From assembly GCA_001247695.2 (NCBI GenBank), contig LGRX02035499.1, positions 62,001 to 126,000 of the forward strand: 64,000 bases of DNA. Direction: 5' to 3'. The translations under genes and the position numbers were made by a program. Under the pieces are notes generated by a model. The model saw only the letters and a program-made list of their open reading frames with translations, was not told the origin of the DNA and did not search any database. Origin of the DNA: Cymbomonas tetramitiformis (taxonomy: Eukaryota > Chlorophyta > Pyramimonadophyceae > Pyramimonadales > Pyramimonadaceae). Positions within the stretch are counted from its first letter, which is position 1, and each line of letters opens with the position of its first letter. Below are positions 22,644 through 51,897 of the stretch, in pieces.

Positions 22644-22679
22644 AAGGCGGCCCGCGCTCTCCTGGCGTTTCCCGAACTG

Positions 22680-24083: not shown

Positions 24084-24423
24084 TGCTATGTTTAAGTTAT
24101 GATATGTTAAGTCTCAGTTTGTACAAGAGAACCATAAGTTAAAACTGTATGCTATATAAACATAAGATTTAATTGTTTTGGCATAGCTCAGACTAGTTTC
24201 GTTCCCTGCCTGGAACTCGTCAGTGAGAAAGAAAGAATCACTGTGTGGGCCCGGTTACCACATATAGTCCTACTAATTAAATCAGATCAAGTCAAAGATA
24301 CTCAACGGCTCGGAATCTAAACTCATAGTGACAGAGGTAAATAACTGTGACAATAAGAAATCACAATTAACATCAGGAATATACTGCCACTCAAAAGAAA
24401 TCGCAATAACCATCAGAAATATA
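24084..24423 (-). repeat. Upstream pLTR of the Penelope-like element
   Basis: This is the direct repeat of 18238-18576. On the minus strand it precedes ORF1 and would supply the promoter and the 5' hammerhead. Beyond 24423 the sequence becomes unrelated host DNA ('ggtgtattgttaaatcccg'). Confidence 0.85.
24187..24227 (-). ncRNA. Minimal type I hammerhead ribozyme (upstream copy)
   Basis: It is identical in every core and stem position to the copy at 18340-18380: CTGACGA, GTTCC/GGAAC, GAAA, CTAGTC and CTCA/TGAG. Cleavage by it would set the 5' end of the element transcript. Confidence 0.85.
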
Positions 24424-24870: not shown

Positions 24871-25624
24871 GTCCGACTCTGCCCCAATATTCCTTTAATC
24901 TCATCGAAAACCCACCACCAAGTGATTGGACGTTCATATTCTTGCGCGTGTTGATATATGTCGTGTGCCTTGAGCTCGACTTCGTCCGTGATTCAATCCC
25001 CCTACTTGTGTCCCTATTTTCTTTCTGAATGACGCATCGAACTTTGTTCGGGAAGCTTGACGTTCGCTGCAGGTTGCAAGGAATTGAAAACGGATCCCTA
25101 CACGTCCGGTTTGCTTACTTCGTGCACTGCTGTACGTTTTGGTTTTGGTTGGTTGCTAGTTTGGTTTCTGCCGCAAACTTCGAGATTTTATGCTTCGTAA
25201 AATCAGTAATATGCACTGACTCGTCGCGCTTGGCACGGTATGCTCTGCAGACAGTCATATTCGCTGCGGCACTGCGGGCTGCCGCGCACGCCTTAGCAAG
25301 GATGGCCCACTTTGCTGACTTTACTTTATTGCTTGTTAATTATTGCATCGAACCGCAACCGTTCCGCTAATTTTCGACAGTTTGTGACTTAAAAGGACGT
25401 TAGCCACTCATAACTCGCGGCTGGCACCGTGTGCTATTCAGGATAGGCATCTTGGCTGCTGCATGGCGGCTTGCGGCGCACGGCTCAACCTGTTTCCTGA
25501 TTTTGTGCATATTTGGGTGTATTGTGTGGTTCGCTTCGACGCCGCAATCAGCGACGACGCCACCATCAGCGTCGACACTACAATCGCGTTATCCATGCGA
25601 GCCGACGAAGTATCAAGCTCTCAG

Positions 25625-25989
25625 TGTGCCAGGGGGCATAACGCTGTTGAAATTCAGAAAGTTGGTATGACAGTATGACAATATGACAGTGTGACTGTAT
25701 GACTGTATGACTGTACTGGAATAAGATCGATGTCGAATAATGACGAATCAGTGAGACAGAAATTGAGAACGAGGCTATGACGGTCACGGGATGACGGTGT
25801 GTAGGAATTCCGTGACAGGCATTGATAAGGACGTTCGGAAATGGTTTCGGCCTTCTTGAAAACAAACTTGCAATGCAACAAACCTAGCTAGTAACTCTCA
25901 TAGACTCAATATAGTATATAGTAAATAGAAATAAATCGTTCCGTCACGACAATCCGATAGTCCGATATAGATAAGTGCCACCGGGCACA
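25625..25989 (+). repeat. 5' LTR of the gypsy element
   Basis: It begins TGTGCC and ends GGCACA (TG...CA with extended terminal inversion). It contains a run of octamers, TATGACAG and then TATGACTG, near 25664-25713. Downstream, TGGTATCTCAGAACG at 25992 is a possible tRNA primer-binding site resembling initiator-Met types, but not a clean match. Confidence 0.9.
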
Positions 25990-26793
25990 TTTGGTATCTC
26001 AGAACGTGAGTCGTTCTTTTCAGCTACGGCTCTACAGACCTGTGGGAAATACTGGACGAATACTGGACGATACTGGACGAGCTTTTTTGCTTTCGAGGCG
26101 CAATTTTCAGTTGTTTTGCTCATATTTTTGTGGCTTTCTAACTTTGTTGCAGCTTCAAACGGTTCAAAAAAGCGAATTATCCGTTTCCTTAAGTATGGGA
26201 CCAGTCTCCAGGCCAAAGTTGTGAACATTCAGTTTCCGATGTAAAAATTTTCGGCTTCAGAAGACTTCCGACAACTTATATTTAGTATCCTCCATACTTT
26301 AGAACAGTTTCTGGACAGTCGGAAACAACTTTGAGTTTCAGATGTAAAAGTGGCAGACCGAAAAAGCTCATATTTTCGCTCTCACAGTGTTAAGGGCCTA
26401 CTCCCGTGACCCCCTCCGTTGAAAAACGTGTCGCGGAGCCCTGCAAATGTTTTTGAAAAGTAGTTCCAAAACGACTGTTTTTCGAAAAATTCACTTTTTC
26501 CACTGTTCGGCCAAAGCTGGTTTCAAGATCTTCCAGAGCAGCCCCTCCAGGACGTCCTCAGACTACAGATATGGCAGTGCCCCCGGACAAGTATCGCAAG
26601 GTATGGTGGAAACAAGGCTTTGGTGCGTGGTTATTCCAAGAACCAACTCCCTTCCACGAACCCGGTATTCCCTTCGGCGGCCTTCCTCCTTCACCTCCCA
26701 CTTCTGACGACGAGGAAGAAGAGGCCCAGCAATAGACACTAGATACCCCACCCCCTAGCAGCACTTCCATACCCACTTCTAGCCACCACTACC
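25990..26793 (+). other. Gypsy 5' leader
   Basis: This untranslated stretch between the 5' LTR and gag has no credible ORF. A 'tactggacga' phrase is repeated three times at 26050-26083. A canonical Kozak-like ACCATGG closes it. Confidence 0.6.
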
Positions 26794-29700
26794 ATGGACC
26801 CCCACCACCATTCTCAGTCCCCTCCATATGTTGTATATACCTCCACGCCACCACCGCTTACCCCTCAGAGTACCCCTGCGCAACACCGCTATGACCCCCG
26901 GGCCCCCTATAGTCAGCCTCAGTTGCTGTACCCGCCCTACTCTGTCGCGCCCCCACACTCCCACGCCTATCACCAGGGCGCACAGTTCGGCTGGTCGCAC
27001 CCCATATTTAATGGGAACTCCTGGGAGGCACCAGCTCGAGCCCCGCACTACCCTCAGCTCACTCCCACATATCACTCAGTACCGCCTCCGCACCCCGCGC
27101 CACCTCCTACAGCGCCGGTCCCAGGGGCGTACCACCAGCCCGTGGCCCAGCTTCCTTCGCCGGGTCAGCAGCCTATATTTCAGGGGGCGCAGACTGACGC
27201 GTGGTATGAGCCCAGTGTGGAGGAGCATGCGCAGAGATTGGAAGGAATTTGGAGGGAGACGGCGAGGGAGCGGGCGCCACCAGCGTCGTCTCAGCCTACC
27301 GCGGACCGAACTGGTCTGACCGCGGAGGACCACCGGACCCAGCAGAGCCCAGTGCCGGCGGGCATTCTGGAGGCTATAGTGGACGGCCCCGTCACCTACA
27401 GCAGCGCAGAGACTGCAGCGGGACCAGCGTCGATTCCATCTCCGCCACCTCCAGTGTCAGGCGACCCTTCGCTCAGTGCGCGCCTTCCGCCCGACCCAGC
27501 TCCTCACAACATCCGTGTGCGCCACTCATACACGGGGATTATGGACCCGGACACCAGCAGCAGACCTCAGAGTATGCAGAACAGACAGCGGGCACGTCAG
27601 TCCTCAGGCCCGGGCACACTATTGAGACACCTTCCTTCACGGTCGGATTCACCCCTTGTTCACAGCACCAGCGGGAGTGATTCTGACCGAGGCTCCCCTC
27701 GTTCGCGCCGCCGCAAAACGCGGACAAGGGCAGTCAGAAGGAATGGATCCAGGAGTAACAGCGAAGGTCGGCGCAGTGACCCAGAGTCAGGTCTCAGTCT
27801 GGCGGCGCTGCGCCGCAGCATCATGGAGGAGGTCCGTCGGGAGATTCAGGCAGAAATGCGGGGCCAGTTGGACCTCAGGAATTCAGTGGAGAGGAGTTCA
27901 GGACCATCCGGCGACACACCTGGGGACCGCCCCACTGCACCCAACACTACGACCAGGGGCGTGACCTGGCGGCTTGACACGGCGGGCGCCGGCCACACTG
28001 AAGCCACACACAGGCCAGATCAGCGCCAGTTGGCTCTCCGCAGGCGTTCCTCCCTTGACACCACAGTGATGAGGAACAACAACAGTCCAGTTGGGTCAGA
28101 TTGTACGCCCAGCGAGGATTCCAGAGATCACGATCACCCTCCCCACCAGAGACCTGGCCCAGACTACGACGGCGACACCTGCGAGATCCGAGCCCTAGTG
28201 ATGACAATCGACGGCGGATCGCTGTGGATACCCTGCCCCAACAGCCCCCACGGTCTCACCATCTCTACTCTTCCCAGTGGGGTCCGACCCAGGTCTCCTC
28301 CCAGCGTCTCAGACGTCGGTCACTTTCACCGCTTGATGCGGCAGATCGGCATCCCGCTGCCCAATAATGGCTGGGGAGGCAGGCACGGGTTCCTGACCGG
28401 GCCGGCTCTCCTGGCCAACACTATACATGAGACATGGGCCATAGTCGTAGATCGATCAGCGGCAGACTTGTCCATGGCTGAATCTCGACCCACGGGTGCA
28501 CTACCCCTCCATCGCTGGGAGTATATTCCTCCCAATGCTCCTGAATCTGCGATGCTGGGCTTTGACTCAGACGCTCTGGTCGCCTGGTCTGAAGCCAGTT
28601 CCTCTGAATGGTACCGGGAACTCAGACGACTGTCGGGCCATGTACCGAGGCTAATCGACCCCCCGATTCCAGCCCCGCCACTGCCTCCGCCGCTCTCAGC
28701 CCGGCCAGCCTTTCCTCGCTCTCCGCCGCTGTCCAGTGCAGCCGAGCCTTTCGAGCCAGGTCGGCCCTATTCAGCTGGGACCCGGGGACATCCGTCACGT
28801 CCCACTCCGTCATCCTCCCCACCTGTGACTCCCAGCGGACCGTCCTCTCGACCACCCGTGCTGCCGCCAGGCATGCTGCCAGTGAAGGCCGAAGCGCTCA
28901 CCAGAGCTTCGGCTCAGGAGATCAGGGAGGAACACAAGACCAAAGAGATGGTAATGAAGTGCGTGAAGGCCACGCCCAAGTTCCCTGCGAAGACGGCCTC
29001 GGGTTCGGCACCCAGTGACGACGAGATCCTGTTACAGTTGGAGCAGTTTGCTAGGGCCACGAAGAAGCTGTTCGACGAAACCATCGTGCGCGAGGCCTTG
29101 ATCACCCCCAGCTGCACCCCGGCCTTGTCCGACTACCTAGCGAGCGTGCCCAGCCTACTCTGGGACCTGAAGGAGAACGTGCTGGGCGACAAGCAGAAGA
29201 GGCACCTTGAGCGGGCCGCAGGCGGCACTGGGTACCAAGGGGGCTGGCAGACCCGCTATAACGACCTTGACACCTTCTTCTGCGATCTGGCCCTCTGCTC
29301 CCTGAAACAGCATTACCTAGAACGCGTTTTCGACGAGACCAAGGCCATGCGTCAGCGAGACAAGGAGAGCGCCTCTGACTTCTTCGCCCGTTTGGACGCT
29401 CGACGCGATGCTGTCAACTTTCTGGCAAGGAAGGTGGCGCAGTGTGTCCACATGTCCGACCAGAACATGCTCACCACGTTCCGAGCTGGCCTGAGGTACG
29501 CAGGCAAGGTCATGCGCCGACTGCACCAAGAACGCCTGGACATCTCCAAGCCCGAGGAGTGGGAGCAGCGTGCTAAGGAGCAGAACTTCCCGGGGACGCA
29601 CGTGGCTTTATTGAAGTTGCGGGAGATCGCTGACAATGTGGAGACTGACATGGAGTCCAAGGCAGCGGACAAGCTGGCCGCCGAACGAGCGTCTAGGTCA

Positions 29701-30183
29701 GCGCCGTTCTCCCCCTCGAGCCCTTCCAACCGGCCTTCCTTCTTCCGTAACCGGACTCGGGCCCCCCTGGCCGTAATGGAAGGCCCGTCGGCGGCAACCG
29801 CGGCAGTTGCAACTTCACCAGCCCCCACACCCACCTCCTCTGCTGCCACTTCGGGGGTACGAAGGTGTTTCGCATGCGGTTCACCGGACCACATCGTCCG
29901 CAACTGCCCTGACGAGGCAAAGCTGCAGGCGTGGAAGGCCAATGCCCCCCCTCGTCTCGCCAAACAGCCGCAACATGTAGCTGCAGTGGTTTGGTCGTCA
30001 GAACAGGCTCAGTCCGAAGATCTCTCGTCTGTCCCAGAGATTTTTGTGGAGGAGGTGTGCGCACTGATGGAATGTGAGGAGGTAGAGCCTTTCGCTACTC
30101 TGTGTCAGATGTGTGACATTGAGGTAGACTTGGGAGAGGAGCCCGCTCCAGACCCTGCCCCGCAGCCGGGCGAGCAGAAATGA
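26794..30183 (+). CDS. gag: Gypsy Gag, long, with zinc knuckle
   Basis: This 1129-residue capsid/nucleocapsid protein is about two to three times the usual Ty3 Gag length. Residues 1-270 are Pro/Tyr/His-rich and low complexity. An Arg/Ser-rich stretch leads to a helix (IMEEVRREIQAEMRG). The retrotransposon Gag helical domain lies at about 830-960 (FFCDLALCSLKQHYLERVF, DFFARLDARRDAVNFLA). One CCHC knuckle, CFACGSPDHIVRNC, lies near 1025-1038. The stop UGA (30181-30183) is followed by CUAG, a known leaky context, and the pol frame continues without another stop. Confidence 0.9.
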   Translation: MDPHHHSQSPPYVVYTSTPPPLTPQSTPAQHRYDPRAPYSQPQLLYPPYSVAPPHSHAYHQGAQFGWSHPIFNGNSWEAPARAPHYPQLTPTYHSVPPPHPAPPPTAPVPGAYHQPVAQLPSPGQQPIFQGAQTDAWYEPSVEEHAQRLEGIWRETARERAPPASSQPTADRTGLTAEDHRTQQSPVPAGILEAIVDGPVTYSSAETAAGPASIPSPPPPVSGDPSLSARLPPDPAPHNIRVRHSYTGIMDPDTSSRPQSMQNRQRARQSSGPGTLLRHLPSRSDSPLVHSTSGSDSDRGSPRSRRRKTRTRAVRRNGSRSNSEGRRSDPESGLSLAALRRSIMEEVRREIQAEMRGQLDLRNSVERSSGPSGDTPGDRPTAPNTTTRGVTWRLDTAGAGHTEATHRPDQRQLALRRRSSLDTTVMRNNNSPVGSDCTPSEDSRDHDHPPHQRPGPDYDGDTCEIRALVMTIDGGSLWIPCPNSPHGLTISTLPSGVRPRSPPSVSDVGHFHRLMRQIGIPLPNNGWGGRHGFLTGPALLANTIHETWAIVVDRSAADLSMAESRPTGALPLHRWEYIPPNAPESAMLGFDSDALVAWSEASSSEWYRELRRLSGHVPRLIDPPIPAPPLPPPLSARPAFPRSPPLSSAAEPFEPGRPYSAGTRGHPSRPTPSSSPPVTPSGPSSRPPVLPPGMLPVKAEALTRASAQEIREEHKTKEMVMKCVKATPKFPAKTASGSAPSDDEILLQLEQFARATKKLFDETIVREALITPSCTPALSDYLASVPSLLWDLKENVLGDKQKRHLERAAGGTGYQGGWQTRYNDLDTFFCDLALCSLKQHYLERVFDETKAMRQRDKESASDFFARLDARRDAVNFLARKVAQCVHMSDQNMLTTFRAGLRYAGKVMRRLHQERLDISKPEEWEQRAKEQNFPGTHVALLKLREIADNVETDMESKAADKLAAERASRSAPFSPSSPSNRPSFFRNRTRAPLAVMEGPSAATAAVATSPAPTPTSSAATSGVRRCFACGSPDHIVRNCPDEAKLQAWKANAPPRLAKQPQHVAAVVWSSEQAQSEDLSSVPEIFVEEVCALMECEEVEPFATLCQMCDIEVDLGEEPAPDPAPQPGEQK

Positions 30184-33100
30184 CTAGCCTCGGCGTCCCT
30201 GCCGTCGACCCTGCCCACAGAGGAAGTGCGGTCCCCGCTGGAAACCCTGCCCGAGGAGGAAGTGTGGTTTCCCAAGACGGCCAAGACCCTGCTCGTTGGA
30301 GAAGTGAGGTCACATTCAGGGGTTCAGTCACAGTCAGATGTACAACCCCGGGCACTCTCTCAGACCCTGCTCATGCGAGAAGTGAGGTCAAGAATGGATG
30401 CCCTGCCTGGTCAGCAGGTGGAACGGTTTACACCTAGTACCCTATCAGACCGAGAGGTAGAACAATTAGGTTCCCTCCTAGCGACCCTGCCAGAGATGGA
30501 AGTGAGGTCGCCCCGTGCACAGTTCACGGAGACCCTGCCCCTCGGGGAAGTGAGGTCAGCTTTAGGGGCTGTCGTTGAGGTGGACACGCCGCCCCCAGTC
30601 GCAGAGGGCCACCCCTACAGAGCTAAAAAGCTCGGGTGTCCGTGGGGTAACCTACCCCTGCCCCGGCATTTGGCGTTTCGAGGAAGGAAACCCGCCAGCC
30701 ACGCCCACTCTAGATCAGCGGGTGGTAACCTCGTCAGTCACCCTCTTGCAGGCAGCGGGGAAGAGGATGGCGTTCCTATGACGAGAGTGAGAATTCTGGG
30801 TCGTCGGGCTAGGCGTCCCATGAATGGGAGCGATCCCACCGGCCCCGACGCTGAGGTGCGCAGCCCGGACAGTTCGATCGGACCGGCCGGCAGCCCCCGC
30901 CGCCAGCAACGTCGTTCTCCAGTCGCGAGGCAGCAGGAGTACAGAGATGGCCTGGCGGACCGCGGGGGTCGGATCCAGGCGTGGCGTTGGAGGCGTACGA
31001 AGGGTATGCTGCCCTTAGAGGAGGCAATGAGGCGTGTCCGACGAGCTCTGCGAGAGTCTCCTCAGGCGGCTAGGGAACTGGTGGATCAGATGTCTGCACG
31101 CGCCAGGAATTTTGCCCACGCTAGAGGACGCCGCGTTCATGCAAGAGCGGCTACCTTGCGGACACTCATGCAGCAGCAGCGAGCGGCTACGGACATAGAT
31201 CAGGGCTTGTACCGGGCGGCCGGGCAACATCATCATACGCCTCTTGGCTCAGTGCCCTCAGAAAGTGTCGGGGCTGATCCGGATCTCTGTTCAGCGTGGT
31301 CTGAAATGTCGCCAGCGGAGCAGCGGGAGGCAGTGCGGACATCTCAGCCAGATTCTCGCCCGGGTACCAGGCCCTGGGAACAGTTAGGACTGGCAAGGCT
31401 TCAGGCACGGCGTCATGGTATGCGATTGCAGTCGGGGTCCCAAGGACAGATCGCCACTATGGAGACCGACGCAGGCACCGTTCTGGGTTCCGGAGGGGAT
31501 GTCCCAGGGATTCCTGATGCGTGGTGTAGTTTATATAGGGTGCACCAGTACCGTCAGCAGGCGGCCCCGGTTGAGACTACGGACGTTCGCGATCAGCTTC
31601 TCGGCTCTGCCCCTGTTGGCTCTCCATCCTCGTCGGTCGCCGGTTCCCGCGCTGCGGCAGAGCCAAGCTTCGGCTCGTCGGGATCCTCCTCCTTATGTTT
31701 TACCCAACAAATGGGGGGGGGGAGAGCCATTTCTTCTGGTTTTTCTGGATCCGACGTCTCCGCGCACCGCCTCCAGCCCGGCCTTGCAGACTCCACAGAC
31801 AGCTCCGACAAGGAGACGCATCTCCTACAGGACGCCCGATACGCAACGCTTCGTCAACATCATCCTGACGCGTTCCCGCACGGAACCCTTCCTCCCGGCT
31901 CTCCAGGAACGGCCCCGACCTGTCTCTCGTGGGAAGAGACCGAGTTCGTTAAGAACATTGCAGCCACTCGCGCTGAGGTGTGGCAGGCAAGGTCAGGGTC
32001 GAAATTAGGTGGTCCCCTCTCGGCTGACACTACCAGTCACGTCAGTGCGATGCCCGACCCCACGGCCGACACCACCAGTCATGTCAGTGCGACGCCCGAC
32101 CCCACAGCTGACTCCGTCTGCCACGTCAGTGCGACACCTGATACCACTCCATCCTCATCCCACGTCAGCGCTACCCCCGATGATGCCAGATCCTCGGCGC
32201 TGTCTGCCATCGCGTCAGGAGAACTTGGCAGTCACCCACTCACTGCCGACGAGAAGATGCTGCACTGCGAGCGCATTAGGATGGATGGTGGCGTACAGTG
32301 GGGAAAACCGGAACATGGCACCTTAGCGGCGGCCCGTGATGAAGAAGGCCCGCTGCTGCTGGTCTTTCACGCTCACCTCAAGGGGCATCAAGTGAAGGTG
32401 TTGGTCGATTCTGGCGCGTCCGATAACTTCGTCTCGGAGAAGTGCGCTCAGCGATGCGGGTTAACACTGAGGTCGGGCGCAGAGATGCGGGTTACGCTGG
32501 CGGACGGGTCAGACAAGACTACTGGCAGCACGGCTTATGCCAAATTCACCGCAGACGGGGCATCTGGCAGCTACACCGAAAATGCGTTGGCCTTACGGGT
32601 ACTGCCACTTGGTATCCAGGTGGATGTTGTTCTGGGGGGTAGATGGCTACGCAGCTTGTCGCCCGTCACATTGGACTATGAGGGCAATGGGTCAATCTCC
32701 TTTAACAAGCGATCCCGCGGTGGGAAGACTGGAGAGAGGATCACCATCAGCGGCTGTTGCCCTGGAACCTCTCATGGGACAAAGCAGTCGAAGAAGGGGG
32801 CTTGTGCGGGATTGATTGACGAGGTGTTCCTCACGGCGGCGCAGCTTAAAAAACACCTGGTCTACGCGGAAACGCGGAAGTTAAAGGGCAACGACGACCC
32901 CAACCTCCAACCTGCTTGGATTATGATGGCCAGGAGAGACCCTGACAGCGAGGAGTCAGCCTTCGCGGCAGTAGCAACGGACCCACCCAAACATGATCCC
33001 TCTCAGCCACCTCCGGACAACCAGGACGCAGACGCCAGCCAAGAGTGGATCCTTAAGTTTCAGGGGTTCCTGGGTGAGAAATTTCAGGCGGAGGTGCGCG

Positions 33101-36100
33101 ACGCCTTGCCTAACCTGGAGTATCTGCGACATGACGCTCAGGACGAGGCCTATGTCCAACTGGACGCCGAGTTGAGCAAGAAAGGCCCCCCTAGTCAGCG
33201 TGCCTACAAGAAGTCAGCCGAAGAACTGCGTCAGCTGCGAGATCGCATAGAAACCCTGTTGGCTAAGGGCTATATTAGACCCTCGGCCAGTCCATACACT
33301 GCACCCTGCCTCATGGTCCCAAAGCCTGGTAACCCCAAGGAACTCCGACTTGTCATCGACTACCGCATGTTGAACAAGCAGACCGTCAAGGACAAGTATC
33401 CCCTGCCTGACATTCAGGTGATGTTCGATGAGATGCACGGAGCTAAATTCTTCTCCTCCTTCGACGCAGTGGACGGATTTTGGCAGGTGCCGATGGCTCC
33501 AGGGGACGTGGAGAAGACAGCTTTCACCACACAGATGGGATCCTATGAGTGGTTGGTCATGCCGCAGGGGTTACAGAACTCGCCCTCACAGTACCAGCGA
33601 CGCATGCAGCGAGCACTGGGACATCTCCCATTTGTACGGATATTCATCGATGACGTGGTGGTTTTCAGTAACACCATAGAGGAGCATTATCGCCATGTTG
33701 AGCAGCTGCTCCTCACTTGTCGCGAGAAGGGCGTCTTCTTGAAGCGCTCTAAGGTACAGTTGCTGAACAAGTCTCTCCGCTTCCTTGGTCACACTATCTC
33801 AGCAGATGGGTGTAGGCCTCAGCACGATAAGGTAGCTGCAGTTCGCGACTGGCCAGACTTAGAGACTGTGACTCATGTCCGTCAGTTTCTGGGGCTGGCG
33901 GGATACTATCGCCGCTTCATACACTGTTTCTCAGAAATCGCCCAACCCTTGACACGCCTCACGAAGTCGGATGTCGCCTGGGAATGGGGTCCCCTGCAGC
34001 AATGGGCCTTTGCGGAGTTGAAGTCCGCCCTGATCTCTGCTCCAGTCTTAGCACTCCCTAATATCAAAGGAGCTGCAGATGGGACAGCCCCCTTCGTAGT
34101 GCAGACAGACGCCAGTGGCATTGCGTTAGGGGGGGTACTCATGCAAGATAACGGTGATGGCCTACGAGTTATCGCCTATGAGAGCAGACAGTTCAGCGCA
34201 GCAGAGCAGAACTACCACACCGGCGAGCGGGAGCTATGCGCTTTGCACCATTGCTCTACAGTCACCTGGCGACACTATCTTATTTTCACCAACTTTCGTC
34301 TGCAAGGTGACCACCGTCCGTTAGAATGGCTTATGGAGCCCGGCAGGGAGCTGAGCAGAAGGCAGGCCAGATGGTATATGGATCTGGTCGAAGTGGGAGT
34401 CCCGCGCATGGAGTACATCAAAGGAGCCCTGTTAATGGTACTAGACGCGCTGTCTAGGCGTCCAGACTACAAGGACTTGGATGCGAGACAGGGCTTAAGG
34501 GAAGCCGGTGTGTTAGACCCTGCGTCCGATCTCCCCGCGAGCCCTCTATCCTCCATTGATGCCGAGGAAAATCTGCGCTCCACTTTTCCATCATCCACAC
34601 CTCCGCAGGTTCAGGAACTGAGTGCGTGGCTAGTTGCGACAGACACACTTCGGGTCGCAGAGGATGCCATGGATGATGCGGGGGATTTGGCGTACAGCTT
34701 CGCCTCCAGACTCCCCACACCGGATCCGTCCACAGTATCCAGCTGGACCCAGAGTCAATCTCCGAAAGCTTCGAGTACTCCTCAGCCACAAACCAGTTCC
34801 CCACCTGATCCTGAGCCTCTTGAATCGTCTCCAGTGGCAAGTCGGACTCGGGGCCGAACCAGCAAGACCATTGAAGCCCCTTCAGCAGAGACTGACACTC
34901 CTCCCACTAGCGACGCAAGACCACCGCCTGTTACTGTATCTCCTCCAGCACGTTCTAAGCGACCATCAGCTTTCACGCCGACGGACCGTCAGGATTGGAG
35001 GGTGCGTACATCTGCCTTTGAGAAATATCAGGACCAGTTCGGGAAATTCGATATGGACGCCTGTTGTGATCTAGCTGGACGCAACCGCCAAGTGGACCGG
35101 TATTGGCACGATTGCCTCGCGGAGCAATGGAGAGGTTTACATGTCTGGTGCAACCCCCCCTACTCCAGTAGCCACCTGACCATAGAGGCAGTTCTCAGAA
35201 AGTATATCGAGGAATGGTGTGCAGACCCAGACCATACCTCGGCAGTCTTCATGTTGCCGGATTTGCAGTCCCGCCTACCAGCATGGCGTAAACTGTTTCG
35301 CATGGCGGGCATGCGTATTGTGGAAGTCATCCCTACACACGACAGTCAGGGCGAGGCGGTTCAGCTTTTCGAGAGCCCGGACGGGAAGTTGTTCGATCTT
35401 CCTTGGCCGGTGCTGGTGGTTTACGCCCCTCCTTCCCGGTCACAGCCTGCTCGTGTCAGACATCCTCGTACGCCACCACCAGTCCTTCGTTCAGGCAGCG
35501 CAGCCAAACTTCGAGATGCCGGCCCAGTACAGTCGGACGAGAAGTTCCTGAAGGCACTTCGTGTAGAGTATGACCGACCCGGGCCACTACAAAATCTGCG
35601 AAAACGTATTGCAGACTCACCGCACCAGTGCACGCGAGACTTCAGACTGGTTGGCGGGGTGTTATGGCGGGTGGCGGCGGGTAGATATCAGCTGGTGCTG
35701 GGGGAGGATTCCCCACTTCGGGAGGTAGTGTTCTGGCACGCTCACGATTCTCAGGCTGCTGGACATGCCGGTAGAGACAAAACCCTTGAGAGAGTTCTGC
35801 GGCGGTTCTGGTGGAAAGGGGCGACGGAAGATGTCGGTGCATGGGTGTCATCGTGCCCGACGTGTCAGTCAGTGCGTCCTCGTTCCTCGTACCCTGATGG
35901 CATGTTGAACCCGCACGCTATCCCGGCTAGGCTTTGGCAGGATGTATCGGTCGACTTCGTCACCGGCCTCCCCCTTACGGACAGGGGCAATGATGCTTTT
36001 GTCGCCTTCACTTGTAAACTGTCCAAAATGGTGCATGTAGTACCAATGAACTTTGGTGATAGTTCTGCATTGGTGGTTGCCCGGATCTACTTCGATTCAG

Positions 36101-37395
36101 TTTGGCGGCTGCATGGCGCCCCCATGAAGATCATATCTGACAGGGATCCGCGGTTCAACGACGCATTCTGGCAGGAGCTGATGAGGTTGATGGGTGTCAA
36201 GGTGGCTCGTACCACCCCATATAACCCTCGATCGGATGGGCAGGCGGAGCACACTAACCGAGTTGTTGAGGACATGCTGCGGTCATTTGTAGATGCTAAC
36301 GTGACCGACTGGGACCTGTTTGCGACGAATGTGGAATTTGCCATCAACGATTCGCGGAGTGAGACTACTGGCTACACACCGTTCGAGCTGTGTTGTGGAA
36401 TGTCTCCCCTGTCGCAGTTGGACTTGTTTCTCGAGGCGGCCAAGTTCGATGGTGGGCGACGACAAGGGGGGGTGGGGACAGCACATGAGTTTGCTTCGAA
36501 ATTTTCGTCGCAGCTGCGGGACGCGAGACATCGAATGGAGCTGGCTCAACAGCGACAGCGGGAGCAGTTCGACCGTCGACATGCACTACGAGAGTACGCA
36601 GTTGGGGATCTAGTCTGGATTGAGGCCAAACACCTAACTGAGAAGGTAATGGACCGTTCCATCTGCAGGAAATTGACCAAGCGTTGGCATGGTCCCGTAC
36701 CAGTGGTAGAGCGTTTCTTCAGCGACACGCAGACTGAATTGCCAGAAGCGGATAGAGGTGCTCCTGTTGCCTACCGATTGCGACTTCCCCCTCACTGGCG
36801 TATACATGATGTGTTTGCCCAACACCGTTTAAAACCATATGTGAGTGGTCAGGGTGAGTTCGCTGCTCGTGACCAACCTGCAATACCGGAGGCAGTGCTG
36901 GTTGATGGTCAGCGTGAGGCTCATGTAGACCGCATACTAGCCAGGCGAGTGCGAGTAGTGCGGGGTAAGGAAATTGAGGAATGGAAAGTCAGGTGGACAG
37001 GATATTCCAAAGCACACGATCAGTGGAGAACACGGGATAAGCTGGAACACGGGGGACCCTTGCAGCAACTACGGGAGTTTGAATCTGCCAGAGTTAGCAT
37101 GGAGGCGCAGGTCAGAGAGGAGGCGGCTAGGAGGCGTGAACAGCGGCAGCGTCGAGGCAGCAGTTCAGGGACTACTTTCGCGCATCTGATCGCAGATCCC
37201 TGCGAGGAGCTGTATCTCTTGGAGCATCTTGAGACTGAACCCCACCTGCCTTGGGAGCAACGTGAGATTTTGGAGGATGGGACCTTGGCGCACATCACCG
37301 AGCTGCGTGCCTCGGATTTAGTACAGAGTACCACCCCCTGCATCCTGGTGTTATTCAGTGGTACTGGTTCGGTGGAGCGGGAATTTCTGGGCTGA
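30184..37395 (+). CDS. pol: Gypsy Pol: PR-RT-RH-Dam-like MTase-IN-chromodomain
   Basis: This ORF of about 2400 codons is in the same frame as gag. The first ~700 residues are repeats (TLP..EVRS; SHVSATPDPTAD at 32027-32185). Then come the protease (VDSGASDNFV, 32404), RT (LRLVIDYRMLNKQ; FIDDVVVF, 33643) and RNase H (VQTDASGIALGGVL, 34100). A Dam/phage-type N6-adenine methyltransferase (34970-35450) has FDMDACCDLAG and VWCNPPYSS. The integrase has an HHCC finger, VDFVTGLP, and SDRDPRFN to GQAE spaced exactly D-35-E. A chromodomain is recognised by WKVRWTGYSKAHDQW (about 36980). The C-terminus begins a C5-methyltransferase (LVLFSGTGSVE) just before UGA 37393. Confidence 0.95.
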   Translation, partial: LASASLPSTLPTEEVRSPLETLPEEEVWFPKTAKTLLVGEVRSHSGVQSQSDVQPRALSQTLLMREVRSRMDALPGQQVERFTPSTLSDREVEQLGSLLATLPEMEVRSPRAQFTETLPLGEVRSALGAVVEVDTPPPVAEGHPYRAKKLGCPWGNLPLPRHLAFRGRKPASHAHSRSAGGNLVSHPLAGSGEEDGVPMTRVRILGRRARRPMNGSDPTGPDAEVRSPDSSIGPAGSPRRQQRRSPVARQQEYRDGLADRGGRIQAWRWRRTKGMLPLEEAMRRVRRALRESPQAARELVDQMSARARNFAHARGRRVHARAATLRTLMQQQRAATDIDQGLYRAAGQHHHTPLGSVPSESVGADPDLCSAWSEMSPAEQREAVRTSQPDSRPGTRPWEQLGLARLQARRHGMRLQSGSQGQIATMETDAGTVLGSGGDVPGIPDAWCSLYRVHQYRQQAAPVETTDVRDQLLGSAPVGSPSSSVAGSRAAAEPSFGSSGSSSLCFTQQMGGGRAISSGFSGSDVSAHRLQPGLADSTDSSDKETHLLQDARYATLRQHHPDAFPHGTLPPGSPGTAPTCLSWEETEFVKNIAATRAEVWQARSGSKLGGPLSADTTSHVSAMPDPTADTTSHVSATPDPTADSVCHVSATPDTTPSSSHVSATPDDARSSALSAIASGELGSHPLTADEKMLHCERIRMDGGVQWGKPEHGTLAAARDEEGPLLLVFHAHLKGHQVKVLVDSGASDNFVSEKCAQRCGLTLRSGAEMRVTLADGSDKTTGSTAYAKFTADGASGSYTENALALRVLPLGIQVDVVLGGRWLRSLSPVTLDYEGNGSISFNKRSRGGKTGERITISGCCPGTSHGTKQSKKGACAGLIDEVFLTAAQLKKHLVYAETRKLKGNDDPNLQPAWIMMARRDPDSEESAFAAVATDPPKHDPSQPPPDNQDADASQEWILKFQGFLGEKFQAEVRDALPNLEYLRHDAQDEAYVQLDAELSKKGPPSQRAYKKSAEELRQLRDRIETLLAKGYIRPSASPYTAPCLMVPKPGNPKELRLVIDYRMLNKQTVKDKYPLPDIQVMFDEMHGAKFFSSFDAVDGFWQVPMAPGDVEKTAFTTQMGSYEWLVMPQGLQNSPSQYQRRMQRALGHLPFVRIFIDDVVVFSNTIEEHYRHVEQLLLTCREKGVFLKRSKVQLLNKSLRFLGHTISADGCRPQHDKVAAVRDWPDLETVTHVRQFLGLAGYYRRFIHCFSEIAQPLTRLTKSDVAWEWGPLQQWAFAELKSALISAPVLALPNIKGAADGTAPFVVQTDASGIALGGVLMQDNGDGLRVIAYESRQFSAAEQNYHTGERELCALHHCSTVTWRHYLIFTNFRLQGDHRPLEWLMEPGRELSRRQARWYMDLVEVGVPRMEYIKGALLMVLDALSRRPDYKDLDARQGLREAGVLDPASDLPASPLSSIDAEENLRSTFPSSTPPQVQELSAWLVATDTLRVAEDAMDDAGDLAYSFASRLPTPDPSTVSSWTQSQSPKASSTPQPQTSSPPDPEPLESSPVASRTRGRTSKTIEAPSAETDTPPTSDARPPPVTVSPPARSKRPSAFTPTDRQDWRVRTSAFEKYQDQFGKFDMDACCDLAGRNRQVDRYWHDCLAEQWRGLHVWCNPPYSSSHLTIEAVLRKYIEEWCADPDHTSAVFMLPDLQSRLPAWRKLFRMAGMRIVEVIPTHDSQGEAVQLFESPDGKLFDLPWPVLVVYAPPSRSQPARVRHPRTPPPVLRSGSAAKLRDAGPVQSDEKFLKALRVEYDRPGPLQNLRKRIADSPHQCTRDFRLVGGVLWRVAAGRYQLVLGEDSPLREVVFWHAHDSQAAGHAGRDKTLERVLRRFWWKGATEDVGAWVSSCPTCQSVRPRSSYPDGMLNPHAIPARLWQDVSVDFVTGLPLTDRGNDAFVAFTCKLSKMVHVVPMNFGDSSALVVARIYFDSVWRLHGAPMKIISDRDPRFNDAFWQELMRLMGVKVARTTPYNPRSDGQAEHTNRVVEDMLRSFVDANVTDWDLFATNVEFAINDSRSETTGYTPFELCCGMSPLSQLDLFLEAAKFDGGRRQGGVGTAHEFASKFSSQLRDARHRMELAQQRQREQFDRRHALREYAVGDLVWIEAKHLTEKVMDRSICRKLTKRWHGPVPVVERFFSDTQTELPEADRGAPVAYRLRLPPHWRIHDVFAQHRLKPYVSGQGEFAARDQPAIPEAVLVDGQREAHVDRILARRVRVVRGKEIEEWKVRWTGYSKAHDQWRTRDKLEHGGPLQQLREFESARVSMEAQVREEAARRREQRQRRGSSSGTTFAHLIADPCEELYLLEHLETEPHLPWEQREILEDGTLAHITELRASDLVQSTTPCILVLFSGTGSVEREFLG

Positions 37396-37998
37396 TTTCC
37401 TTCCGCGACGGTGGTGACCTTGGACTCAGCGGCAGAATGGCAGCCGACGCATGTGTCAGACATCAGACAGTGGGATTATCGGCAGTATTCCCCGGGGTAC
37501 TTTGACGTAGTGTGGGCCAGCCCACCTTGCACGCAGTACAGCCAGGCCCGCACGACTGGTGGACCCCCTGATTTAGCTACTGCTGACGCTTGTGTCCAAC
37601 GAACCCTTCAGATCATTGAGTACCTGAAGCCTCAATATTGGTTCCTGGAGAACCCACGTGGTCGCTATCCCAATGCTCTCCGCTTGCGCCCATTCATGAA
37701 TGCTTTGCCCCCTCCTAAAGTGTGCACTTACTGCATGTATGGTGAACGTTACATGAAACCCACTTGCATCTGGTCTAATTCTGTGACCCCCACACCTTTG
37801 TTGCGATGCACAGTAGAGACGCCTTGTGCTTGCAGATGGGCGACGGGGGCGCATGCAGAGACGGCCAACTCAACTCGGACCACATCCGTCACAAACTGGA
37901 GCTGGAGTGTCCAAGAAGGTGTACCCTATACCCGCACTACTTCTGCGGCAGCTCTTTCAACACCTGAAGTTCAAGGACAGGCAGCAACTGAAGACTGA
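37396..37998 (+). pseudogene. Gypsy C5-cytosine methyltransferase, in frame after UGA
   Basis: This continues the pol frame after the UGA at 37393-37395. Motif I (LFSGTGSVE) lies before the stop. After it come VVTLDSAA (motif II region), FDVVWASPPCTQYS (motif IV with the Pro-Cys catalytic pair), YWFLENPRGR (motif VI) and YCMYGERYMKPTCIWSN, a block typical of this family in algal and protist genomes. The UGA may replace CGA (Arg). A second frame change is likely near the end, because VYPIPALLLRQLF, the expected C-terminal reading, is in another frame at 37919. The fold would methylate cytosine in DNA; whether the enzyme is active is doubtful as read. Confidence 0.75.
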
Positions 37999-38094
37999 AG
38001 AGTGAAGACCCCGGTGAGCGGTTCCCTTGGGTTAGCGTCCTTGAGGCGGGACCTCGGGTTCCCTCCCACAACCGTCATGTTCATGGCGATGGGA

Positions 38095-38220
38095 ACCAGC
38101 AAACCCAAGGACTGGCGGGGACCAGAGTACCCAAGGACTGGCGGGAACCAGAGAACCCAAGGACTGGCGGGCACGGAGAACCCAAAGACCGTACGGGATC
38201 CAGCGAACCCAAGGACTGGT
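38095..38220 (+). repeat. Gypsy 3' UTR minisatellite
   Basis: 'aacccaaggactggcggg' plus 'gaccagag' variants repeat about every 29 bp, four to five times. The rest of 37999-38322 has no gene. Confidence 0.75.
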
Positions 38221-38322
38221 GTAGTAGTTTTAGGATATGCATACGTGACGGGAGCATCGAGGCATCTGACATATTCATCAATGATTTCGTACCTCAAGGG
38301 AGTGTTTCAGGAGAAGTCCACT

Positions 38323-38339
38323 CCTAAGGGGGGGAGAGT
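38323..38339 (+). promoter_or_regulatory. Gypsy polypurine tract
   Basis: The purine run AAGGGGGGGAGAG lies directly before the 3' LTR start TGTGCC and would prime plus-strand DNA synthesis. Confidence 0.8.
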
Positions 38340-38712
38340 TGTGCCAGGGGGCATAACGCTGTTGAAATTCAGAAAGTTGGTATGACAGTATGACAGTATG
38401 ACAGTATGACAGTGTGACTGTATGACTGTATGACTGTACTGGAATAAGATCGATGTCGAATAATGACGAATCAGTGAGACAGAAATTGAGAACGAGGCTA
38501 TGACGGTCACGGGATGACGGTGTGTAGGAATTCCGTGACAGGCATTGATAAGGACGTTCGGAAATGGTTTCGGCCTTCTTGAAAACAAACTTGCAATGCA
38601 ACAAACCTAGCTAGTAACTCTCATAGACTCAATATAGTATATAGTAAATAGAAATAAATCGTTCCGTCACGACAATCCGATAGTCCGATATAGATAAGTG
38701 CCACCGGGCACA
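38340..38712 (+). repeat. 3' LTR of the gypsy element
   Basis: It is the same as the 5' LTR except for one extra 8-bp TATGACAG unit (373 against 365 bp) and one visible substitution. It is followed by CTCAG, the target duplication. Confidence 0.9.
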
Positions 38713-38956
38713 CTCAGACCGCAGAATGTAAATCTTTGGATCACGAAGTCTGGAGGCTTATAAACCTTCCAGCAGCCGGTACCCAGTCCAACCGTGGTCG
38801 TTTCTGATGGTTGAACCGATGTTGCAGGTATTGCAAGATCGGGGCAGACCGCTTTATCATACCAGGAGCACAAGGTATGCACACTTCCAGCATCTTTCAC
38901 ACTGTCGTCTAGCTAGCTTTTTCTATCACTATCAAAATACAATAATTGTCAGTGTC

Positions 38957-40092: not shown

Positions 40093-40176
40093 TGTGCGGC
40101 ACACTGCAAATTTAAACACACTTTCACTCTACTCAGGGTAAAGATTAACTAGTAATCCTCACCGAATCAACCAGAT

Positions 40177-41133
40177 ATGGCTGAAGACGGCGACGCGGGC
40201 AAGGCAGGCAAGTCAGGGGAGGGTCCCACACCCGTCCCAATGTCTACTGTGCCCGAACTCATGACCGAACAAGTCGAGAAGAAGTTACTCGACCAGAAAT
40301 TCGAGAATCAACAGCTGCAGCACGCGGCTGTGATGCAACAGCACGCCCTTTCAATCGCGTTGCTCACGGAGCAAGTGAAAGGCCTGAGGGAGAGCGCGAG
40401 CTCTTCCAAAGGCGAGGCTGCGACCACGAAGACGACGGGCGACGCGGAGCTTGAGGCCAAGAAGCAGCTCCCCTACGTCCCCTACGCCCCTGTCAACCCG
40501 TTCCCCTTGCGTCCTTCGACGCTGGAGGACTTGATGCCCAAGGTCTACGACCTCTACGGCGACAAGACTCACGCACTCCTGTGCAAGAAGTCGAACTCGT
40601 CAATGAGGTACGAGCAAGCGACCCTGGGACCTGCCCTCGCCTACTTCCACGACGCGGTCGTGTACGAGGAGGAGACCATGGACTGGATGCAGGGGGCGCC
40701 TCGGGCGCCAATGTCTGTCAGCGAGTGCGACGAGCTCTGGGATCGGATGGTGAGGTCGCATAACACCAAGAAAGGTGTGTATGCGATCCTCTGTAACCGG
40801 TACACGATGCTGACGCTGAGGGCCTCGCTCGACGCGGAGGGCGGAGGCACTGACGCTGTGAGGGCAAAGCTGGCCTTCATGGAGGAGAAGGTGAACGCCG
40901 GAACCGAGGGCGTTGTTGGCGACTCAGTGATGAAGAAGTGGCTTGAGGAATTCGACTCCTCCAAATCGCGCTCATTGATGACGGCGACAGCGAAGCAGGC
41001 GGCGCTGGCGGCCAAGGCGACCCTGGGTGGGCGCAGCGACTCCCGTATCGGCCAAGGACGAGGGGGACGAGCGCCATCGACGCCCAGTACAGCGACGGGT
41101 AAGGGTGCCAAGGGCTCCCAACCCGCCAAGTAG
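40177..41133 (+). CDS. PAT-2 Gag-like protein
   Basis: This 318-residue Gag begins at ATG 40177 (MAEDGDAGKAGKSGEG). A predicted coiled helix (about 25-75) is followed by the conserved PAT Gag block: LPYVPYAPVNPFPLRP, YDLYGDKTHALLCKKSNSSM, LGPALAYFHDA, KGVYAILCNRYTML and the C-terminal RAKLAFMEEKV. A basic Gly/Ser/Lys tail replaces a zinc knuckle. It ends at TAG 41131; the pol ATG starts one base later (41135), an arrangement that suits reinitiation. Confidence 0.85.
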   Translation: MAEDGDAGKAGKSGEGPTPVPMSTVPELMTEQVEKKLLDQKFENQQLQHAAVMQQHALSIALLTEQVKGLRESASSSKGEAATTKTTGDAELEAKKQLPYVPYAPVNPFPLRPSTLEDLMPKVYDLYGDKTHALLCKKSNSSMRYEQATLGPALAYFHDAVVYEEETMDWMQGAPRAPMSVSECDELWDRMVRSHNTKKGVYAILCNRYTMLTLRASLDAEGGGTDAVRAKLAFMEEKVNAGTEGVVGDSVMKKWLEEFDSSKSRSLMTATAKQAALAAKATLGGRSDSRIGQGRGGRAPSTPSTATGKGAKGSQPAK

Positions 41134-41134
41134 A

Positions 41135-42066
41135 ATGTGCCTATCGGCACCAGACCTGACCCCTGTTGCTCCGGGGGTTCAGGTCAAGAGGCGTACCCTC
41201 CAGGAGGAGGTACGCTCTCGGCGGGGAGCATGGCGCGCAGGTGGCGCGAGCAGCGAAGTGCTGCACTGGATCGCTCGTGGAGCGAAGATGCGGTGGGTGA
41301 AAGGCCCACCACCCAAGTTCGACCACGGTACGTCGTTAAAGGACTTGACGGTGGCGCAGCAGCAATGGTTGTCCATCGAGAAGGAGCGAGCGCTGCTGTC
41401 GGGCGCTTGGGTGAGAGCACATCACCGAAGCCACGTATCCCGCGTCTTCTTGGTGAAGAAGCCTGGCGAGAACAAGTGGCGGCTCGTGATGGATCTGAGG
41501 TGGCTAAACTTCTTTTGCGTGAGGTCGCACTGCAAGATGGAGACTCTGAAGAAGCTGCGGAAGCTGGCGAGCGAGGGCGACTGGTGCTTCACCTTCGATC
41601 TCAAGGACGGCTACCACGCAGTGGGGATCGACCCGGAGTTCCAGAAGTTCATGCAGTTCGACATCCAAGGGGAGTTGTTCCAGTGCGGAGCACTCCCCTT
41701 CGGGTGGTCGGATGCACCGAGGGTCTTCGTCAAGTTCATGAAGACGCTCGTGGAGTTGCTCCGGTCTCCTCAGGCGGGAGAAGATCGGCGAGAGATCAAG
41801 AAGATGCTCGGGGGAAAAGCTGTTCAGCGACGATGGGCTGTGAGGAGGCGCGAAGGTGGACTTTACCGAGGAGCGGACCAGGCTGGGGCGAGGGTACTGC
41901 CGTACATGGACGACTTCATGGTGATTACGAAGACGAGAGACGAGGCCTACTTTCAGCGAGATCGCGTTACTCGTCTTCTTTCTCGACTCGGGCTGAGTCG
42001 AAACGAGAAGAAGGGAGTTTGGGAGCCGACGCAAGTGGCCGTGCACCTGGGGCTGGAGGTGGACTG
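41135..42066 (+). pseudogene. PAT-2 reverse transcriptase, 3' truncated by deletion
   Basis: From ATG 41135 (MCLSAPDLTPVAPG) it gives RRGAWRAGGASSEV, KWRLVMDLRWLNFF, FDLKDGYHAVGID, LPFGWSDAPRVF and the catalytic YMDDFMV. The frame is good until HLGLEVD, where a deletion joins directly to HDIELQARYIRS, which in PAT-3 lies about 207 codons later. The join also shifts frame, so residues read on from here to 42469 are not real coding sequence. Confidence 0.85.
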
Positions 42067-42579
42067 CACGACATCGAGTTGCAAGCCCGGTACATCCGCA
42101 GCGAGGCGAACGAGTGGGCAGACCGTCTTTCCAGGGACAAGGACTTGGACGACTGGAGGATCAACCGCAAGTGGTTCGACTACGCCGAGACGGCTTGGGG
42201 CAAGCACACGGTGGACCGCTTCGCTTCGGAGTTATCTCGGCAAGTCGCGAGGTACTACAGCGGGTGGCACGATCCGGAGTGCGAGGGCGTGGATTCGCTG
42301 GCTTACGACTGGCGGGGAGAGACCAACTGGGTCAACCCGCCGTGGCGGCTACTGGACGAGGTGGCCCACAAGGTGCGGGAAGAAGGAGCAGCAGCAACGG
42401 TGGTGGCGCCCTACTGGCCAGGGCAGGCATGGTTCCGAGAGCTGGAGGCGCTGTCAGCCGAGGTGGTGATCATGCCCCGACAGCGAGATCTGTTCACTCC
42501 GAGCAGGCTGGGAGGGTCCGTGCTGCTCGGAGCCTCCGACTGGGACGCAGTCATGTTTCATATCCCCAGCTCCCACTGA
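42067..42579 (+). pseudogene. PAT-2 pol C-terminus: RNase H end and methyltransferase
   Basis: This continues pol in a shifted frame: HDIELQARYIRSEANEWADR (end of RNase H), then the Dam-like domain with VDRFASELSRQVARYYSGW, YDWRGETNWVNPPWRLLDE and VVAPYWPGQAWFREL. NPPW is the expected catalytic motif. The stop is TGA at 42579, directly before the recombinase frame. Confidence 0.85.
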
Positions 42580-43922
42580 GCTGCCACTTACGTGGGAAGG
42601 GAAATGAAACGGTGGTGGAGAACCTCGACGATCATGAAGAGGTGAGAACCGGCTGCAAAATAGAAATATTTTGGCCGGATGATCAGCTTTGGTACCCTGG
42701 GACGGTGGGGGTGACAGGAGCTGACGGTAAGAGAAAAATCGAGTACGACGACGGGGACATCGATTTCCTTGAGCTGAGCAAGGAGAAGTATCGGCTGCCG
42801 ACAGCCGAAGCTCCGACGTTGGAGCCAACGTGGAGAACGGCAATGTTAGCTCACTGGTCAGCCAAGTTGGGAGACAGAGCCCTGGCGGACGAGGCAGCGG
42901 AGATGCAGGCGGCGGCGCTGCGGCCTTCGACGGCAGGGAATTACGAAGGCCACTGGAAGACCTTCGTGGACTTCTGTGTGGAAGAAGGATTGCCCTGGTT
43001 GCCGGCAACTGAGGGCACCGTACTGAAGTACATCGCCTTCCAGAAGCGGCGAGGAACGGTGAGAGGATCTTCTCTGCAGCCGTACCTCTCAGCAATCAAC
43101 AATTTTCACGAAGACTTAGGGCACGACGGACCGGCTAAAGGGCGTGCTGTCACGAGGGCCGTGAGAGGCATGACGGCGATGCAGACGGAGGCAGAGGAGG
43201 AGCAAGGTTGCTCGGCAACGGAGAGGACGTGGCTGCCGGCTGCGGCAGTACGTCGGGTGCACCAGGCAGCAGATGAGATCGTGGTGGACAGTCGTGAGAG
43301 CCTGGAGCTCTTGCGATCCTGTGTGTACGTGGTGGTGGCCTTCGTGACCTTCGGCAGACCTCAGACAGGTACGGCAATGCTGAGGGAGAGTCTACTGCGG
43401 GACGGCAGTGGGCTCTCGGTGGTGCTGCAGAAGGAAAAAGGGAGGAACCACACGAGAACAAAACGGAGGCTCCACATCCCGGTGGACGGGGTGAAGGGCC
43501 TCCGTGAACTGCTCGAGCTGTGGGAAACGGCTCGAGATGATGCATGGCTGAACGATGCACCGACAAGGACATCGGGGACAGCAGGCACGGCCAGCTACTG
43601 GAGGCTGCCGTGGGAATCTGGCAAGCACATCAAGGCCTCGGAGGCCAACGTGTGGATCGGAGAGGCTTTACAACACGTGGGCTGTGTGCCTCCAGAAGGA
43701 GGGCACTACTCAGCCCACAGCACTCGGAAAGGTGCAGCAACGTGTGCACGTGCAGTGGGGGTGACGATGGAAAAGGTGTGCTACTTCGGGGGGTGGAGCC
43801 AGCTGTCATCAGCAGTGCTGGCTTACATCGACCCCACTGCAGTGGCGGACAATGACATGACCTACTACTTCGGGTGGTTAGCACCGGGATGGAAAAGTGC
43901 TCTGCAAGATTCAGTAGAGTGA
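42580..43922 (+). CDS. PAT-2 Tudor-like + tyrosine recombinase
   Basis: This is the integration enzyme of PAT-2. After a short linker, a Tudor-like domain spans 42649-42795 (IEIFWPDDQLWYPGTVG; IEYDDGDIDFLEL). The core-binding part has SSLQPYLSAINNFHEDLGH. Catalytic residues seen are Arg in FVTFGRPQTG, a Lys/Arg-rich beta hairpin, HSTRKGAAT (HxxR), GGWSQLSS and AYIDPTA (Tyr nucleophile). No ATG follows the pol stop in this frame, so translation probably depends on a frameshift, a near-cognate start or the long overlapping frame upstream. The frame is intact to TGA 43922. Confidence 0.88.
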
Positions 43923-44684: not shown

Positions 44685-44799
44685 GCGCGTACGGTTCAGT
44701 TGGTGAGATCGGCGGTGACAGTTGGGATATTTTTGCCGTGGCTCTTGGGATCTGCGTTGCCAGTTGATTGCTTCAGTTAATTCTCTTTTCGGGCAAAAT

Positions 44800-47835: not shown

Positions 47836-47836
47836 C

Positions 47837-51847: not shown

Positions 51848-51897
51848 CCGTGAACATTGTTTGGGAACTTTCACCCTGATTTTACATTCTGATTATG

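Follow-up and report, generated by a model that had tools for sequence, protein, structure and literature searches.

A Ty3/Gypsy retrotransposon family of Cymbomonas tetramitiformis encodes both a Dam-type and a C5-type methyltransferase

Introduction

Why retrotransposons carry DNA methyltransferases is a question raised anew by a locus of Cymbomonas tetramitiformis (Chlorophyta), analysed here within a stretch of 64,000 nucleotides (contig LGRX02035499.1, positions 62,001 to 126,000), which we call the window and whose numbering is used throughout. A retroelement of this window encodes, in one polyprotein, a Dam-type adenine-N6 methyltransferase domain and a C5-cytosine methyltransferase (C5) domain. 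The combination had been pointed out in a first-pass annotation made from the letters of the sequence, and it extends well beyond the single locus: one Gypsy family encoding a Dam-type methyltransferase, a C5-type methyltransferase and a chromodomain is present in many copies, with low ratios of nonsynonymous to synonymous substitution (dN/dS) between its subfamilies.

Results

Both methyltransferase domains lie within one complete element

Self-BLAST, alignment and inspection of the sequence delimit a complete long terminal repeat (LTR) retroelement at 25625-38712, on the forward strand like all its features given below, and both methyltransferases lie inside it. The interval initially assigned to the element, 34970..37998, does enclose the two enzymes, but the true extent is larger. 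The 5' LTR (25625..25989, 365 bp) and the 3' LTR (38340..38712, 373 bp) share TGTG...CACA ends and differ by zero substitutions, the sole difference being 8 extra bases in a short tandem repeat of the 3' LTR, which the aligner scored as a 7-base plus a 1-base gap. The target-site duplication CTCAG flanks the pair at 25620..25624 and 38713..38717, and a polypurine tract, AAGGGGGGGAGAG, lies upstream of the 3' LTR at 38326..38338. Because the LTRs are free of substitutions, the 5-bp duplication is in place and the polypurine tract is present, we conclude that the element inserted recently.

The Dam-type domain (34972..35532) matches PF05869 with an E-value of 9.2e-10 and 38.9 bits, against a cut-off of 28.1; its DMDACC motif starts at 35050 and its NPPY motif at 35152. 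The C5 domain opens with a first piece (37336..37392) carrying the S-adenosylmethionine (SAM) motif LFSGTGSVE, a motif type that also opens the full C5 domain of relatives, and is then interrupted by an in-frame TGA at 37393..37395. Its middle piece (37396..37825) bears ASPPC at 37516 and ENPRG at 37648 and matches PF00145 over 37438-37659 (E 4.9e-6, 26.6 bits versus a cut-off of 22). The five motifs reported earlier are thus all present in one frame, and in the profile check suggested at that time both domains score above the curated cut-offs. The accompanying statement that the frame runs on into C5 after the chromodomain holds for the motifs, but the TGA intervenes and the C-terminal piece (37826..38002, boundary set by eye) lies in another frame, with frame 1 continuing past the middle piece out of register to 37998.

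The C5 domain of the window copy is consequently broken twice, by the TGA at 37393 and by a frame shift near 37826. This damage is young, since the PF00145 match persists and the piece after the TGA has a dN/dS of 0.04-0.05 against four other loci of the genome (L038, L040, L041 and L042). Recoding of the TGA was considered and rejected: no Rfam match of such a kind was found in 25500-38900, where the sole match at E <= 1 was weak and far under its gathering score, and a frame shift follows anyway. On both counts, decay of the window copy is the simpler reading. In its present state this copy is unable to encode the entire C5 domain in a single frame.

Upstream of Dam, the Pol frame encodes an aspartic protease (32374..32640; PF13650, 7.9e-10), a reverse transcriptase (33316..33798; PF00078, 3e-31) and an RNase H (34084..34389; PF17917, 1.6e-27). 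Between Dam and C5 follow the H2C2 zinc-binding domain of an integrase (35710..35883; PF17921, 4.8e-19), the integrase core, or rve (35947..36228; PF00665, 4.6e-5, under the curated cut-off), part of an integrase SH3-like domain (36760..36843; PF24626, 2.6e-8) and a chromodomain (36922..37080; PF00385, 6.3e-6, 26.5 bits versus a cut-off of 25.1). LTRs with TG..CA ends, a short target-site duplication and the order protease, reverse transcriptase, RNase H, integrase are those of Ty3/Gypsy elements, and a chromodomain downstream of the integrase, its score just over the cut-off, is chromovirus-like. By its LTRs, domain order and chromodomain, the element is thus classified from its sequence as a chromodomain-bearing (chromovirus-like) Ty3/Gypsy type. 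A DIRS identity was ruled out by the H2C2 and rve matches, the ordinary LTRs and the target duplication.

The pair recurs in genomic copies and in related proteins

The 851.7 Mb assembly of the same genome was searched with Dam as query, a survey confined to loci that have Dam. The search listed 8198 Dam candidates, which is not a copy count; 150 of them, the window's own included, were scored, all at E <= 6e-89, and 40 loci were fetched from the matches ranked 2 to 49, eight near a contig end being passed over. Dam identity to the window copy is 85-88% in eight of the fetched loci and about 70% in the other 32, and NPPY is present in 40/40. Other copies lacking one or both domains had been named in advance as grounds for giving up the claim; the survey provides no such refutation, as C5 lies downstream of Dam in 30 of the 40 loci. 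It is in one piece in 24 of these (20 of the 24 stop-free), and in 15/40 Dam and the complete C5 share a single open frame. Six of the ten loci without C5 break off before the chromodomain, and two (L062 and L066) pass the chromodomain and lack C5. An insertion splits L050, whose fetched stretch stops where C5 would begin; for L074 the stretch was taken from the wrong side.

Protein searches returned 41 relatives with the Dam region and 20 with the C5 region of one of them, P0020; six of the latter were new, giving a total of 47 whose proportions are biased, the searches having selected for one domain or the other. By profiles of our own (E <= 1e-5), 45 have Dam and 37 have C5; 35 have both, ten Dam only and two C5 only. 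At least three of the 'Dam only' proteins (P0001, P0019 and P0033) stop upstream of the C5 position, and the domains listed for P0046 are not those of a polyprotein. The nearest named proteins in the Dam-region search are CYMTET entries of Cymbomonas tetramitiformis. Pfam detects both domains together in P0020 (2492 amino acids; PF00145, 24.5 bits). PF00145 reaches 18.6 bits, under the cut-off, in P0010 and is unlisted at E <= 0.01 in P0024; both proteins contain the full C5 motif set by our own profile.

The order Dam, integrase, chromodomain, C5 recurs among the relatives, including proteins from other sources. Among domains that cover the motifs, the catalytic Dam motif (NPPY or NPPF) is retained in 39/43 and the C5 motif pair (PPC plus ENP) in 29/29; Dam residues D29, C31, G36 and N38 are invariant in a 14-row alignment. 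Departures from the common plan also occur, such as the placement of Dam ahead of the protease in P0041 and a PHD finger between Dam and integrase in the metagenome relatives P0039 and P0044. From these sequences, the family has the look of a modular system in which parts come and go.

The modest Pfam score of C5 and the broken frame of the window copy could be taken to signal an artefact: the match might be due to chance, the contig might be chimeric, or a methyltransferase gene might simply be the neighbour of a Gypsy element. We give this explanation hardly any credence: both domains are inside a matched LTR pair with a target duplication, 15/40 loci keep them in one open frame, and the arrangement recurs in proteins from other sources. 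The position inside the LTRs and the recurrence in other copies rule out a chance match or a neighbouring gene.

Both domains bear signs of selection and have diverged together

Values of dN/dS were calculated by the Nei-Gojobori method with our own script, as estimates that carry no confidence limits, for the window copy and nine of the 15 open-frame loci. Between the window copy and L038, L040, L041 and L042, dN/dS is 0.03-0.06 for Dam (dS 1.5-2.6, near saturation), 0.04-0.05 for C5 (dS 1.03-1.17) and 0.02-0.04 for the integrase-chromodomain segment (in the three of four pairs with computable dS); comparisons against the 70% subfamily are saturated. L038 and L040 compared with L041 and L042 give 0.09-0.14 for Dam (dS 0.19-0.24) and 0.04-0.05 for C5 (dS 0.78-0.84), and C5 values within a young subfamily (L046, L049, L054, L068 and L075) are 0-0.10, from few changes. 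The dS of a given pair is several-fold unequal across domains (for L038-L041, 0.22 in Dam, 0.89 in the integrase segment and 0.82 in C5), which suggests recombination between element families in this set of four loci.

Distances in Dam, in C5 and in the segment between them are correlated over 20 elements with both domains full (r 0.80-0.92; 0/2000 permutations as high). P0016, a near-copy of P0014, was removed from this set by hand, and P0018 and P0020, a pair with identical C5, were kept. The correlation indicates that Dam and C5 have mostly travelled together. Anatomy, recurrence, conservation of the catalytic motifs, correlated divergence and low dN/dS between subfamilies are documented here for a lineage that is found in Cymbomonas and in metagenome hosts.

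The two enzymes resemble phage methyltransferases

The window Dam matches PHROG profiles at up to 3.9e-12 (best family phrog_111), and the C5 of P0020 at up to 2.9e-17 (best family phrog_757, nearly full length). By tblastn, relatives were found in phage records, 12 for Dam and 16 for C5. Unlike the element domains, the phage enzymes of phrog_111 and phrog_757 are stand-alone genes, and they are ~25-38% identical to the element domains in the matched part. Both methyltransferases are of kinds best known from phages, and the C5 is phage-like.

The predicted structure of the P0020 C5 matches DNMT3B, M.HaeIII and DNMT1 with a probability of 1.00, DNMT3B ranking first. The C5 sequence profile retrieves mostly DNMT2 and DNMT1, with no DNMT3 chain among the 32 matches listed. 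The element C5 is of a short type (210-230 amino acids) and groups with short stand-alone proteins in a tree that holds no Dnmt3 rows. That tree comprises 85 of 140 full-length rows, including every second short stand-alone row (35/70), P0144 among them. It contains a 28-row clade of Cymbomonas and close metagenome relatives with a Shimodaira-Hasegawa-like approximate likelihood ratio test (SH-aLRT) value of 95, obtained with no bootstrap; P0038, P0039, P0043, P0044 and P0045 fall outside this clade, unplaced. A single capture of C5 and multiple captures are both compatible with the tree.

P0144 is a 243-amino-acid C5 relative from the EukProt record Tetstr1, a label that we read as Tetraselmis. 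A bacterial C5 donor was considered and rejected, since the best of three GTDB loci (L077), by eye, carries part of a retroelement of the same type. At 27-2768 of this contig, from a 'Verrucomicrobiaceae' metagenome-assembled genome, a Dam tail, an integrase, a chromo-like region and a C5 can be made out; the contig is probably eukaryotic DNA mis-binned in a bacterial genome record.

Discussion

Each enzyme has been reported singly in a retroelement, C5 in a Gypsy element of Klebsormidium (PMC5890265) and Dam in DIRS elements (PMC3783388). KnitGypsy-Dnmt3 of Klebsormidium nitens (de Mendoza et al. 2018, PMC5890265) resembles the Cymbomonas element in being an intronless LTR element of the Gypsy type whose Pol includes a C5 methyltransferase, and it is described there as under purifying selection (Ka/Ks < 0.2). 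It differs in that its enzyme is Dnmt3-related, whereas the Cymbomonas C5 is short and akin to phrog_757, and the available text on it mentions no Dam domain. DIRS elements share the Dam (MT) domain, PF05869, placed after RNase H (PMC3783388; cited in PMC5890265), and the Cymbomonas Dam profile matches those of four DIRS-like Dam domains in the window (probability 99.2, E 5.7e-20). According to the same source (PMC3783388), however, DIRS elements have a tyrosine recombinase and lack an aspartic protease or DDE integrase, whereas in the Cymbomonas element a protease and a DDE-type integrase are encoded between LTRs, and a target duplication is present. SymbioDIRS-Dnmt3 and SymbioLINE-Dnmt (PMC5890265) also bear a C5 methyltransferase, but on a DIRS or LINE backbone, and the available text reports no accompanying adenine methyltransferase. 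The accessible part of the account of Cymbomonas tetramitiformis repeats by Burns et al. 2015 (PMC5741210) describes no such element and names no adenine methyltransferase. No report of both enzymes in one retroelement was found in searches of the open-licence PMC literature, which leaves subscription papers uncovered. As far as these searches go, four things are new: the union of the two enzymes in a single Gypsy polyprotein, a C5 of phage-like type, the variants with a PHD finger, and the marks of selection that each enzyme bears.

Since related copies preserve both enzymes, the element may chemically modify its DNA (or its RNA) in the course of moving. The account that we favour, at slightly less than an even chance, is that both enzymes modify the element's own complementary DNA (cDNA) around reverse transcription and integration. 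Because both sit next to the integrase in Pol, they would be expected to enter the virus-like particle or pre-integration complex with the cDNA, either processed or as fusions, and there to methylate it around reverse transcription and integration. Such methylation would be the simplest act selecting for both enzymes within the element. By analogy with phage methyltransferases and restriction, it would conceal the element from host nucleases or foreign-DNA sensing, and the new copy would arrive pre-marked. A more elaborate version, which we regard as tentative, is a complete self-modification kit: with a different base methyltransferase on each side of the integrase, and with chromatin readers added (the chromodomain and, in some relatives, a PHD finger), the element would mark newly made cDNA doubly, with N6-methyladenine (6mA) and 5-methylcytosine (5mC), giving each insertion an epigenetic identity of its own.

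Several observations weigh against modification of the cDNA by both enzymes. Young copies were compared in 15 pairs without overlap, drawn from 407 with pairs >99.9% identical left out, and a CpG-specific excess of C/T differences was not found: the rates are 0.0163 at CG, 0.0184 at CHG and 0.0123 at CHH, CG and CHG being slightly above CHH. The decay that heavy CpG methylation would leave behind is thus not seen in these pairs. The marking may be brief, repaired, elsewhere or absent. The 40 loci are not independent, as 32 come from one subfamily (that with Dam ~70% identical to the window). Close pairs give higher or mixed dN/dS, which for Dam is 0.10-0.95 in the young subfamily and 0.46 for L041-L042 (C5 0.18); for C5, the pair L038-L040 gives 0.49, all of these values resting on few changes. 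On the protein sequences on record, P0041 contains Dam but no C5, the reverse holds for P0045, and the pair is accordingly not obligatory. Finally, NPPY/F is lost in 4/43 Dam domains (P0024, P0023, P0026 and P0027), which means that Dam catalysis is possibly dispensable or that the domain does something else.

The motif losses lead to the proposal that the Dam-type domain is mainly structural, binding nucleic acid or SAM, with C5 alone catalytic; one of four aligned DIRS-like Dam copies in the window likewise has GNLP, not NPP. We think this improbable in view of the motif retained by the other 39 domains, the four invariant residues and the low dN/dS between subfamilies.

A further point against the cDNA account concerns the substrate of Dam. 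Its predicted structure matches Rossmann-type methyltransferases, and the best structural match of the model is CAPAM/PCIF1, an RNA methyltransferase. As this nearest fold is that of an RNA-cap adenosine methyltransferase, RNA is a serious alternative as substrate: the Dam-type domain might methylate the capped transcript or the particle's genomic RNA, aiding for example translation, packaging or RNA evasion, with C5 alone acting on DNA. The likeness to the mRNA-cap enzyme is in fold only, however, at 12-14% identity. PCIF1 was not found among PDB sequence matches of Dam up to E 10, nor was a PF12237 match in the window Gypsy pol up to E 0.1, and sequence searches found no credible relative of solved structure. 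Enzymes of one fold can differ in substrate, and by sequence Dam matches PF05869 and phage DNA methyltransferases; we consider an RNA substrate unlikely, while granting it a real chance.

The first-pass annotation had suggested that an element writing both 6mA and 5mC, and reading histone marks through its chromodomain, could steer its own silencing or mark new copies. On this view the targets of the enzymes would be copies already in the chromosomes, or the site of insertion; the chromodomain would serve as reader, and the silencing state of the element would be set in this way. The position of C5 directly downstream of the chromodomain and the PHD finger added in P0039 and P0044 speak for this idea. 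Against it stand the lack of a CpG-specific footprint in the young-copy pairs and the fact that chromodomains of Gypsy integrases are usually tied to the choice of integration site, and we judge it improbable, marginally more so than a structural Dam. An anti-viral defence role has been put forward in print for methylase-bearing retrotransposons (PMC6338049), under which the enzymes would protect the host or the element from DNA viruses or from mobile elements of other kinds. Selection at the level of the element, with dN/dS like that of the integrase, is explicable without such a role, to which we assign very little weight.

The family bears on the opening question in that one host genome offers natural controls, namely loci in which both domains lie in an open frame, loci whose C5 is broken, and loci that continue past the chromodomain but have no C5; metagenome relatives that have lost the Dam motif are further ones. 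If modification of the cDNA by both enzymes is true, 6mA and 5mC in a eukaryote would be traceable to enzymes of a mobile element instead of the host.

Further features of the element and of the window

Upstream of pol, a gag-like frame, open from stop to stop, spans 26743..30183 and contains a CCHC zinc knuckle, CFACGSPDHIVRNC, at 29866-29907, recognized by eye and without a Pfam match. It ends in a TGA (30181-30183) that separates gag from pol in the same frame, and the pol frame (30184..37395) is then open for 2403 codons until the TGA at 37393-37395. The interval between gag and protease, 30184-32370, has ~700 open codons and no Pfam match; by eye, P0010 has a stretch resembling its DVPGIPDAWCSLYRVHQY, and P0020 shows a looser likeness. 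It may be real protein.

A second LTR-bounded element occupies 18237-24423 on the reverse strand, with 340-bp LTRs that are 99.7% identical. Its open reading frame 18643-22287 has a PCIF1_WW match (PF12237, 1.2e-6, under the cut-off) and reverse transcriptase-like motifs by eye, with no Pfam match to a reverse transcriptase; it may be a further retroelement that encodes an adenine-methyltransferase domain. Five elements are DIRS-like by layout, with overlapping long frames and reverse transcriptase, RNase H and Dam: 13226-17713, 40156-43922, 44719-50654, 52289-56732 and 61810-64000. Pfam matches to Dam in these elements, at 53239-55383 (3.7e-5) and 48518-49618 (2.2e-5), are both under the cut-off. 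A Pfam scan of 49581-50651, the sole DIRS-like downstream frame scanned, gave no match, and a tyrosine recombinase was not found there. The stretches 51896-54479 and 61418-64000 are 99.0% identical.

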